Assembly: GCF_003627075.1 (NCBI RefSeq)
Contig: NZ_CP032630.1
Location: forward strand, 2,294,001-2,358,000
Source of the DNA: Protaetiibacter intestinalis
GTDB taxonomy: Bacteria > Actinomycetota > Actinomycetes > Actinomycetales > Microbacteriaceae
DNA: 64,000 bases
Direction: 5' to 3'
The notes beneath the pieces were generated by a model, which saw nothing but the letters and a program-made list of their open reading frames with translations, was not told the origin of the DNA and did not search any database. This document shows positions 18,225-52,984 of the stretch, piece after piece. Position numbers and translations under genes: made by a program. Each line of letters starts with the position of its first letter. Positions within the stretch are counted from its first letter, which is position 1.

Positions 18225-18300
18225 TGTCAAACGCTGCAGCGCTTCCCCTCGCGCTGCGGTGATGTCTGCCGCGCGGAGACAGGCGCTGCAGCGTTTGACA
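18225..18300 (+). repeat. Intergenic hairpin, TCAAACGCTGCAGCG family (copy A)
   Basis: A 76-base element with perfect 18-base inverted ends (TGTCAAACGCTGCAGCGC and its complement) and a smaller inner palindrome (CGCGCTGCGG / TGCCGCGCG). It sits between ftsX and smpB, directly after the ftsX stop. Related copies are at 31031, 52911 and, split open, at 44441-45690. Confidence 0.9.
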
Positions 18301-31030: not shown

Positions 31031-31106
31031 GGTCAAACGCTGCAGCGCTTGCCCGCGCGCGCCCGGTATTGCCGGCGCGGCGGGGCAAGCGCTGCAGCGT
31101 TTGACC
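31031..31106 (+). repeat. Intergenic hairpin, TCAAACGCTGCAGCG family (copy B)
   Basis: A 76-base element with perfect inverted ends of 24 bases, beginning GGTCAAACGCTGCAGCGCTT, and an inner palindrome (CCCGG-TATT-GCCGG). It lies between two convergent genes, prpC and the sugar permease, and could end transcription from both. Confidence 0.9.
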
Positions 31107-44432: not shown

Positions 44433-44463
44433 CGGTCTTCTTGTCAAACGCTGCAGCGCTTGG

Positions 44464-45522
44464 TCACCCGCGGTAGGGATGTGTAGCGCCACTTGCCGAA
44501 GACTGGCGCGCGTCGCTCGGCCGGAGGCGCGCGGCCGCGAGCGCCACGTCAGGGGATGACCAGCTCGTGAAGCGTGGACGGGGCAGCCTGGTCGGAAGAC
44601 CCGCTGCGCGCAGGATGTCGTAGAACTTCGCGGGAGAGTACAACTCGGCAGGTTCCCAGTGGGTGATGCCGTCGACCTCGGGCAGGGCGAGCAGCTCACG
44701 GTCGCGCTGCTTCTCGCGACGGAACACCTCATCGGGGGAGCGGCCGCGAAGGAGGGCCGGATCGGTGTACTTCGCCCGCCCGTCGCTCTCGCCCACCCGT
44801 CCGAAGGCTCCCCACCACAGGTCCACGCGCCGTCGCCCGCTTGCGGTCGCGAACTCCTTCTGCGGTTCGGGCGGAGGAAACCCGAGAACCGTCGCCCCCA
44901 CGCGCGAGACCGTCTCGGGGGGAGCTTCGGCCCGGCGGTCGGCGAAGGCGAGTGCCGCGCGTGCCCGCGCAACGCCGCGGCCCCGACCCGCCGCGCGGAC
45001 GATCTTGGAGATCTCGTCGAGGGTCGTCAGCGGCGCGCGACCGAACGCGGTGCCGAGAGCCGAATCCGCGGCGACCACCGCATCCATGAACGGCAGCATG
45101 CGGGCGAGATCCACCACGGTTTGGGCGGGGGAGGTCACGAGGATGCCGTCGAGCTCGACCACGTCGCGGTCGTCGTAGCCGATCGCATGACGGCGGAGTC
45201 GTCCGCTCGATCGGCCGCCGGAGGATCGGGGAACGAGCACATCGACGCGCGTCGGCCACGTGCCGAGGATGCGGATCCCCCAGAGCGCGGCGGCGGCGAG
45301 GTGCGAGTACACCTGCGGCTCGGCGACCCTCTCGGACGTGCGCAGCACCAGTTCTCGGTGCCGCTCGTGGGGTTCCGCGGTCGTCCATTCCTCGGGGAGC
45401 GCGTACTCGCCGGGGCGGACGCGATGGAGTTGCTTGAGGCGGATGAGCGCGGCGACCTGACGGTCCGTGAAGCCCTGGTCGAGCGCTTCGGGGCGGGTGA
45501 TGCGGTGGAGTCGTGTGTTCAT
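44464..45522 (-). CDS. AbiEi-like winged-helix protein with a possible PD-(D/E)XK nuclease domain
   Basis: This 352-residue protein has an N-terminal AbiEi-antitoxin-like region (RITRPEALDQGFTDRQVAALI, LHRVRPGEYALP, then VYSHLAAAALWGI), a middle region with TSPAQTVVDLARML, and a C-terminal part where VDLWW (Asp234), VGESDGRAKY (Glu245, Asp247, Lys251) and EKQRDREL resemble a DUF559/Vsr-like endonuclease core. No AbiEii toxin gene is adjacent, so it is solitary. Its stop is one base from the left inverted repeat and its start 146 bases from the right one. Function unknown; DNA binding and perhaps cleavage of the flanking palindrome is a hypothesis. Confidence 0.75.
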   Translation of the reverse strand: MNTRLHRITRPEALDQGFTDRQVAALIRLKQLHRVRPGEYALPEEWTTAEPHERHRELVLRTSERVAEPQVYSHLAAAALWGIRILGTWPTRVDVLVPRSSGGRSSGRLRRHAIGYDDRDVVELDGILVTSPAQTVVDLARMLPFMDAVVAADSALGTAFGRAPLTTLDEISKIVRAAGRGRGVARARAALAFADRRAEAPPETVSRVGATVLGFPPPEPQKEFATASGRRRVDLWWGAFGRVGESDGRAKYTDPALLRGRSPDEVFRREKQRDRELLALPEVDGITHWEPAELYSPAKFYDILRAAGLPTRLPRPRFTSWSSPDVALAAARLRPSDARQSSASGATHPYRG

Positions 45523-45668
45523 CGCTGTAGCGTCACGCGCACGCCGAGGCCGGCGGAGGGCGGATGCCGCCATCCGTGGATACGCGACCCTGAGTCCGGG
45601 TTGGGGAGGAGGGCACGTCGCGCGCCATCTCTTGACGCCGCGCGGCGGCATTGTCTGGCGCGCGAGGG
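45523..45668. other. Upstream region of the AbiEi-like gene inside the repeat unit
   Basis: No gene is seen here. It holds short palindromes (GCGGATG-CCG-CCATCCG; GACGCCGCGCGGCG) and the inner-core remnant of the hairpin family next to the right arm. Confidence 0.5.
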
Positions 45669-45741
45669 CAAGCGCTGCAGCGTTTGACAACAACGGTCGG
45701 GGCTTCGGGCGATCGCCCAGGCGCGGGGGCGGGCGGGCCGC

Positions 45742-52911: not shown

Positions 52912-52984
52912 TCAAACGCTGTAGCGGCCGGCCCCCCGCGCCGGCAACTGCTGCCGCGCGTGGAGAACCGCTACAGCGTTTGAC
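52911..52984 (+). repeat. Intergenic hairpin, TCAAACGCTG family variant (copy D)
   Basis: A 74-base element with perfect 17-base inverted ends, GTCAAACGCTGTAGCGG; both arms carry the compensating change GTAGC for GCAGC, which keeps the pairing. Inner palindrome GCGCCGGC...GCCGCGCG. Lies between convergent nnrD and the ABC ATPase gene. Confidence 0.88.

Follow-up and report, generated by a model that had tools for sequence, protein, structure and literature searches.

To our knowledge, no link between a dedicated protein and palindromes dispersed in intergenic DNA is better described than that of the REP/RAYT systems. RAYT proteins are held to copy REPINs, with an enzyme different from the protein described here. 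As excerpts of two reports describe them, RAYT genes are flanked by palindromes of which dispersed copies occur, an organisation comparable to that of the present locus (PMC3733652, PMC8049555). The locus lies within a stretch of 64,000 nucleotides of Protaetiibacter intestinalis DNA, hereafter the window, and its likeness to the REP/REPIN-RAYT "REPtrons" extends to a palindrome-flanked gene, dispersed intergenic copies, several private pairs per genome and a conserved locus in the genus. The differences lie in the components. The window protein shows no similarity to the Y1/HUH enzymes, such as RAYT (TnpA-REP), in family scans and is AbiEi-like and predicted to be REase-like instead; the palindromes are 72 nt long with four sites, whereas REPs measure 20-40 bp and carry GTAG tags; and the arms do not covary in three of four families. 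In its workings the window system resembles a REPtron, with flanking palindromes that recur in the genome, yet it does not belong to that class, because the scans reveal no Y1/HUH transposase. Rather, it is probably a two-part, REP/RAYT-like system in which an AbiEi-like and predicted Vsr/REase protein is paired with a dispersed palindrome of its own.

The window element is bounded by two 72-nt units, the left at 44444..44515 (plus strand; outer arm TCAAACGCTGCAGCG..., followed by inner sites) and the right, inverted relative to it, at 45616..45687 (minus strand). Between them lies a solitary gene of 352 aa (44464..45522, minus strand), whose product consists of an AbiEi-like N-terminal part and a predicted Vsr/REase-like C-terminal part. 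The initial annotation, made from the nucleotide letters and reading frames alone, had described inverted arms around one gene that fills the space between them, and both points hold: 24 of 25 outer bases agree as an inverted repeat, the full units match at 45 of 72 positions when compared as inverted repeats (mean 21 and maximum 37 among 2000 random inverted 72-mer pairs from the window), and no second gene lies between the units. The longer inverted pair around the gene, I1, measures 35 nt at 86%. As had been noted, the stop codon is directly adjacent to the arm; more precisely, it lies inside the left unit, which encodes about the last 17 codons of the gene. Compact copies of the palindrome likewise exist, with a size of 72 nt and a fixed 57-nt arm offset instead of the 74-76 bases claimed before; the base just outside them is G at 56 of 58 ends, which lengthens the match on each side by one base. 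In the gene-flanking units of the window family, an inner-type site lies on the side facing the gene. The neighbours outside the units, which we take to be guaB1 and CorC genes as named in the earlier reading, are those conserved in the genus. No target duplication was seen, the flanks at orthologous sites being too diverged for base-exact comparison.

The N-terminal region of the window protein resembles AbiEi, the antitoxin of the AbiE type IV toxin-antitoxin systems. As had been proposed, the AbiEi-like part is recognised by a PADLOC AbiEi model (aa 8-156, 45055..45501, minus strand; E 1.8e-12) and by Pfam AbiEi_1 (aa 66-144; E 1.1e-4, 22.8 bits versus a cut-off of 22.2). Besides sub-threshold noise, AbiEi was the only family returned by Pfam, NCBIfam and PADLOC scans, and these revealed no Y1/HUH similarity, in agreement with the earlier statement that the protein is unlike that of the REP systems. 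The putative nuclease motifs occupy aa 203-274 (44701..44916, minus strand) and comprise E203, D234, E245-x-D247, K251 and E270. Among 29 homologues, D234, E245, D247, K251 and E270 are invariant and E203 is kept in at least 90%, in line with the C-terminal D...ExD...K pattern that had been pointed out; the window protein and these homologues display the conserved acidic/lysine active-site pattern of Vsr/REase-fold nucleases. Matches to nuclease families were obtained only with paralogues from the same genome, below the Pfam cut-offs, whereas the window protein itself gave none. Paralogue L054 matches MTES_1575 just under the curated cut-off (E 1.1e-8, 35.4 bits versus 38.2) and DUF559 at E 0.028, L055 matches MTES_1575 at E 0.0027, and L053 matches DUF559 at E 0.044. 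The MTES_1575 domain is described as a Vsr REase in an excerpt of PMC3710099. A PDB sequence search returned no match up to E 10. The Vsr/REase-like nuclease domain is a prediction, its fold being assigned only via distant paralogues.

The AbiEi similarity and a wHTH-plus-nuclease plan resembling that of defence proteins could suggest a system of defence or selfish exclusion, with the palindromes serving as marks of self against a nuclease that attacks DNA, or a derivative of a toxin-antitoxin system. We regard this as very improbable. The units enclose a single gene and no partner toxin such as AbiEii, the family scans show AbiEi only, and dozens of dispersed sites would be left unexplained; the window protein also differs from AbiEi in its extra C-terminal nuclease-like part.

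Copies of the palindrome are dispersed in the window and throughout the genome. With up to two mismatches, TCAAACGCTGCAGCG occurs 12 times in the window, where 0.22 occurrences are expected, and the genome of 3.1 Mb contains 67 occurrences of the arm core CAAACGCTGYAGCG (reversed control, 0). Three solo 72-nt copies without an assigned strand, E1 (18227..18298), E2 (31033..31104) and E3 (52912..52983), lie in the window. Genome-wide, 31 solo units of 72 nt were selected from the arm hits, 29 of them with two good arms; the hits at 165382/165624, one of which resembles coding sequence, were left out of this set. Beside the solos, the genome holds four composite elements of 216-246 nt with no gene inside (G000:C1:104691-104906, 187383-187628, 424584-424806 and 2029502-2029726, G000 being the genome of the window), and a further one lies in a congener (G005:C1:250500-250815). 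Composites (216-318 nt) have end units in common with the gene-bearing element, as deletion derivatives would.

The palindrome-gene association proposed for the window proved to be general. A first survey by tblastn at E 1e-10 gave matches in 60 of 99 genomes, the own genome included, and among 34 loci scanned, to which the own genome contributed five, flanking inverted palindromes of quite different sequences were present in many. The main sample consisted of the best 80 of at least 509 relatives, obtained from a GTDB scan with six homologues and chosen without regard to palindromes; each locus was scored by the best inverted repeat between its 350-nt flanks, with a threshold of 20 or more. 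By this measure, the family gene lies between inverted repeats at 46 of these 80 loci, some of which are cut by contig ends. The controls gave 1 of 782 for the remaining ORFs in these loci, 0 of 400 for shuffled flanks and 0 of 199 for genes bordered on each side by non-coding DNA of 80 nt or more. Related species among the 80 are not independent, 17 being Cryobacterium and 15 Cellulomonas. Nevertheless, the 46 flanked loci from this best 80 span 16 genera, namely Salinibacterium, Homoserinimonas, Lacisediminihabitans, Frigoribacterium, Protaetiibacter, Homoserinibacter, Leifsonia, Naasia, Agromyces, Amnibacterium, Cryobacterium, Cellulomonas, Cellulosimicrobium, Subtercola, Allobranchiibius and Arthrobacter. 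A nuclease-like gene between two copies of its own palindrome is thus found in many soil and water actinobacteria.

The flanking palindromes share a design even where their sequences are unrelated. Across 92 units, a median of 26 of 36 pairs are complementary (800 random windows: median 18, maximum 27). A motif of about 10 nt is repeated within the halves at a distance of 19 nt in 52% of halves at 8/10 matches or better (shuffled, 1%) and at 20 nt in 13%, while every other spacing from 8 to 30 reaches at most 5%. Since the motif repeats within each half of the palindrome, each unit has four sites, arranged forward-forward-reverse-reverse at 19-20-nt spacing. The design is most evident in the second system of G005, whose motif lies at offsets 0, 19, 40 and 59, and the spacing in the window family is 20. 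By a design score set against 231 control windows, 66 of 79 loci drawn from the best of the at least 509 relatives have a unit above the control 99th percentile on one flank or more, 48 on both and 13 on neither. Homologues without palindromes, which had been named as the finding that would speak for coincidence, are hence a minority of 13 of 79 by this score, and those loci without a recognisable unit are all that favours a chance meeting of gene and palindromes. The flanking-repeat and design counts against their controls reduce its probability to practically nothing, and we reject it.

The initial annotation had read the palindromes as hairpins. The window solos E1-E3 fold as DNA hairpins (z -6.2 to -10.2), and the 47-nt hairpins of a second system in the own genome do covary, as 0 of 2000 shuffles reach the observed value. 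In the window family, paired positions amount to 79.3% versus 79.0% in shuffles, without covariation between arms, and arm covariation is also absent in Cryobacterium (23 rows, one element counted twice) and in family B of G005 (10 elements). A stem conserved as a hairpin is thus unsupported in three of four families, and since the arms there do not covary, the main palindrome type is better read, from sequence comparison, as four putative double-stranded protein sites than as a selected stem. Integron attC sites were considered as well; the window arm ends GTCAAAC/GTTTGAC resemble attC core sites, yet attC core sequences at both ends, as expected of integron cassettes, do not occur across families, other families of the same system being without the attC-like ends, and this candidate was rejected.

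The pairing of each protein with its palindrome is private. Inside 20-kb loci fetched around homologues, most solo copies were lacking or no more frequent than in controls, and the searches therefore had to cover whole genomes; by counting copies in Cryobacterium, Cellulomonas, Homoserinibacter and the second system of the own genome, these bore out the expectation that homologues would be flanked by palindromes matching the solos of the same genome. Within nine genomes of the genus (G000-G008), window-family arms number 67 in the own genome, 52 in G005 (where a duplicated 2.7-kb stretch is counted twice) and 28 in G002; G003 and G006 hold one each and G001, G004, G007 and G008 none. The gene follows guaB1 in exactly G000, G005 and G002, so that the repeat is numerous in three of three genomes with the gene at this locus and in none of the other six. 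Elsewhere, the guaB1 locus holds a relic in G003 (judged by eye), only a short spacer in G001, G007 and G008, and other inserted DNA replacing the gene on the 3' side of guaB1 in G004 (L112) and G006 (L114). The comparison with orthologous guaB1 loci lacking the insert, suggested earlier, hence yielded gene-free loci, none of them base-exact empty.

Other members of the family behave alike. In G005, family B has 34 matches versus 3 in the control; its motif occurs 11 times (control 4) in G006 and 11 times (control 3) in G008, where the homologues carry the same motif, and in the other six genomes the matches/controls are 3/4, 4/1, 1/5, 5/9, 1/4 and 6/4. A Cryobacterium palindrome is present in 61, 40, 68, 26 and 32 copies in the five genomes that bear it at the gene, versus a single copy in each of two other genomes (controls 0 or 1), one of which has a GGGCCC-type palindrome at the gene and the other no clear flank repeat. 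A Cellulomonas palindrome reaches 36 and 10 copies (four of the 10 at the gene), versus 0 in each of two species whose flanks differ. The own genome itself harbours a second system at 1630712-1631401 (locus L342, G000:C1:1630540-1631667), with 64 arms versus 1 in the control; its copies are 47-nt hairpins (loci L333-L352), and 5 of 21 lie in unrelated places with arms identical over 22 nt, differing only in the 3-nt loop. The paralogues L052 (881594-882565), L053 (831147-832025) and L054 (1814994-1815545) in the same genome have flanking palindromes of yet other sequences.

Palindromes and proteins also diverge together. Median palindrome similarity is 0.40 at 30-50% protein identity, 0.44 at 50-60%, 0.60 at 60-70% and 0.86 above 70%, with a shuffled baseline of 0.39, and the correlation across the 46 flanked loci (from the best 80 of at least 509 relatives) is strong (Mantel r 0.76, p 0.001), part of which shared ancestry alone would explain. 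Among 30 Cryobacterium homologues, 60-100% identical, the motif shifts with the protein as judged by eye, some being without a clear unit. These observations bear on a reading in which an ordinary transposase, encoded elsewhere in the genome, moves the palindromes as MITE-like repeats and the gene is a passenger. The gene-bearing, composite (216-318 nt) and solo forms have common ends, just as autonomous elements and their MITEs do. Yet the same gene family, and no other, stands between private palindromes at the flanked loci and diverges with them; a passenger gene is accordingly disfavoured and appears improbable. Compared with MITEs and their autonomous elements, no target duplication was seen here, no known transposase lies between the ends, and the ends are themselves multi-site palindromes.

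The presence of solos at orthologous spacers varies from species to species. E1 is present in G000, G002 and G005 and absent from G001 and G007, E2 is present in G000 and G005 and absent from G001 and G007, E3 was found in none of seven relatives compared, and E4 (2360031) in none of the three relatives scorable. The E2 site holds a different palindrome family in G003 and 2.4 kb of other DNA in G002, G006 and G008. For one Cryobacterium spacer, 30 loci were fetched; 23 had both flanks, 3 with the element, 2 with another palindrome and 18 with none recognised. Spacers without an element were seen, and none was a base-exact empty site, their flanks being too diverged. At the same time, 10 of the 31 units in G000 have a counterpart at the corresponding position of G002 or G005, and in 12 pairs at 9 shared sites core identity is 97% versus 59% for non-core positions (random pairs, 54%; p 0.0005 for core conservation in place, 2000 permutations), so many copies are old, with their cores held. 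Even at shared sites, the first arm base differs between species; in G000 it is T at 17 of 18 ends, in G002/G005 at 6 of 24, a pattern that might be seen if the sites tracked changes in the protein. The gene of G005 is split over two frames, yet its 52 arms remain.

Cores conserved in place are expected of functional sites, and the strongest rival to a mobile two-part system is a host-serving binding-site system. Here, the protein would be a domesticated DNA-binding factor acting in regulation, 3'-end processing or chromosome organisation, and the palindromes its regulon or structural sites, with mobility over or incidental. The species-specific first arm base fits this reading, as do solos lying within 60 nt of 31 3' ends versus 10 5' ends of genes (rough ORF calls). 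It is further favoured by a single copy of the core motif CGCTACAGCG (45523..45532, minus strand) that abuts the ATG of the window gene and hints at self-regulation, perhaps as an operator; the motif also abuts the start of the gene in G002 and G005 and, with one base changed, of the relic in G003. The start-codon motif is no family rule, though, as only 7 of 46 loci reach 9/10 matches versus 11% of shuffled spacers. Together with the coming and going of solos, the unrelated palindromes of paralogues in one genome and the invariant nuclease-like motif, this makes a purely host-serving role unlikely, if still worth serious consideration.

The preferred two-part system comprises, first, a gene standing alone, in whose product an AbiEi-like DNA-binding region is combined with a predicted Vsr/REase-like nuclease domain and, second, the private DNA address of that protein, a palindrome some 60-75 nt long in which four putative sites of about 10 nt lie 19-20 nt or about two helical turns apart. 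Inverted copies of it border the gene on either side, and the solo copies dispersed in intergenic spacers are non-autonomous. Beyond the observed linkage, private pairing, dispersal, co-divergence and variable presence of solos, we infer that the protein binds, cleaves and mobilises the palindrome: perhaps as a dimer of dimers, it would bind the four sites, the nuclease domain may nick or cut at the bound palindrome, rare repair or replication events could place new copies of units in further spacers, and the cores would be kept constant in place by binding or by some host benefit. Simple mobility is opposed by the missing target duplication and base-exact empty site and by the cores conserved in place. 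The lack of arm covariation in three of four families also stands against it, as do three Cryobacterium drafts (G131, G133 and G142) that hold repeats but no close gene, with 9, 10 and 12 matches to the element-bearing query and best gene hits of only E 5.5e-49, 5.4e-52 and 2.0e-52, respectively. The repeats persisting beside the split gene of G005, the lack of a recent copy in family A of that genome and the 13 of 79 loci devoid of a recognisable unit likewise count against the preferred reading. Whether the family amounts to an independently evolved second class of REP-like mobile systems is evenly balanced in our judgement; in such a class, a wHTH plus Vsr/REase-type protein would copy its own four-site palindrome round the chromosome, both diverging together, so that each Micrococcales paralogue has a private address. 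The organisation of the protein-palindrome pairing has precedent in REP/RAYT; among the literature matches listed, no title or abstract start joined such palindromes to this protein family. If the reading is true, a widespread and unrelated protein family has the REP/RAYT organisation, and this way of life evolved more than once. Its many natural protein-site pairs would serve to learn how DNA recognition co-evolves, orphan palindromes in actinobacterial genomes would be given a cause, and it becomes testable whether such repeats are selfish or host-serving sites.

Some further observations concern individual loci. Recent transposition was considered for family A of G005 and rejected, since its only identical pair (17717 and 3252276) lies within an identical 2.7-kb stretch (L227, L246); this stretch is near both ends of the single contig and is probably assembly redundancy. 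At the Cryobacterium loci L306 and L318, a different palindrome family occupies the same spacer as in other species, and some intergenic spacers appear as if favoured by several such palindrome systems. Finally, at about 1280-1490 of L270, near-identical tandem segment copies with gtcgagcctgtcgag, a different repeat family, lie beside a Cryobacterium solo.
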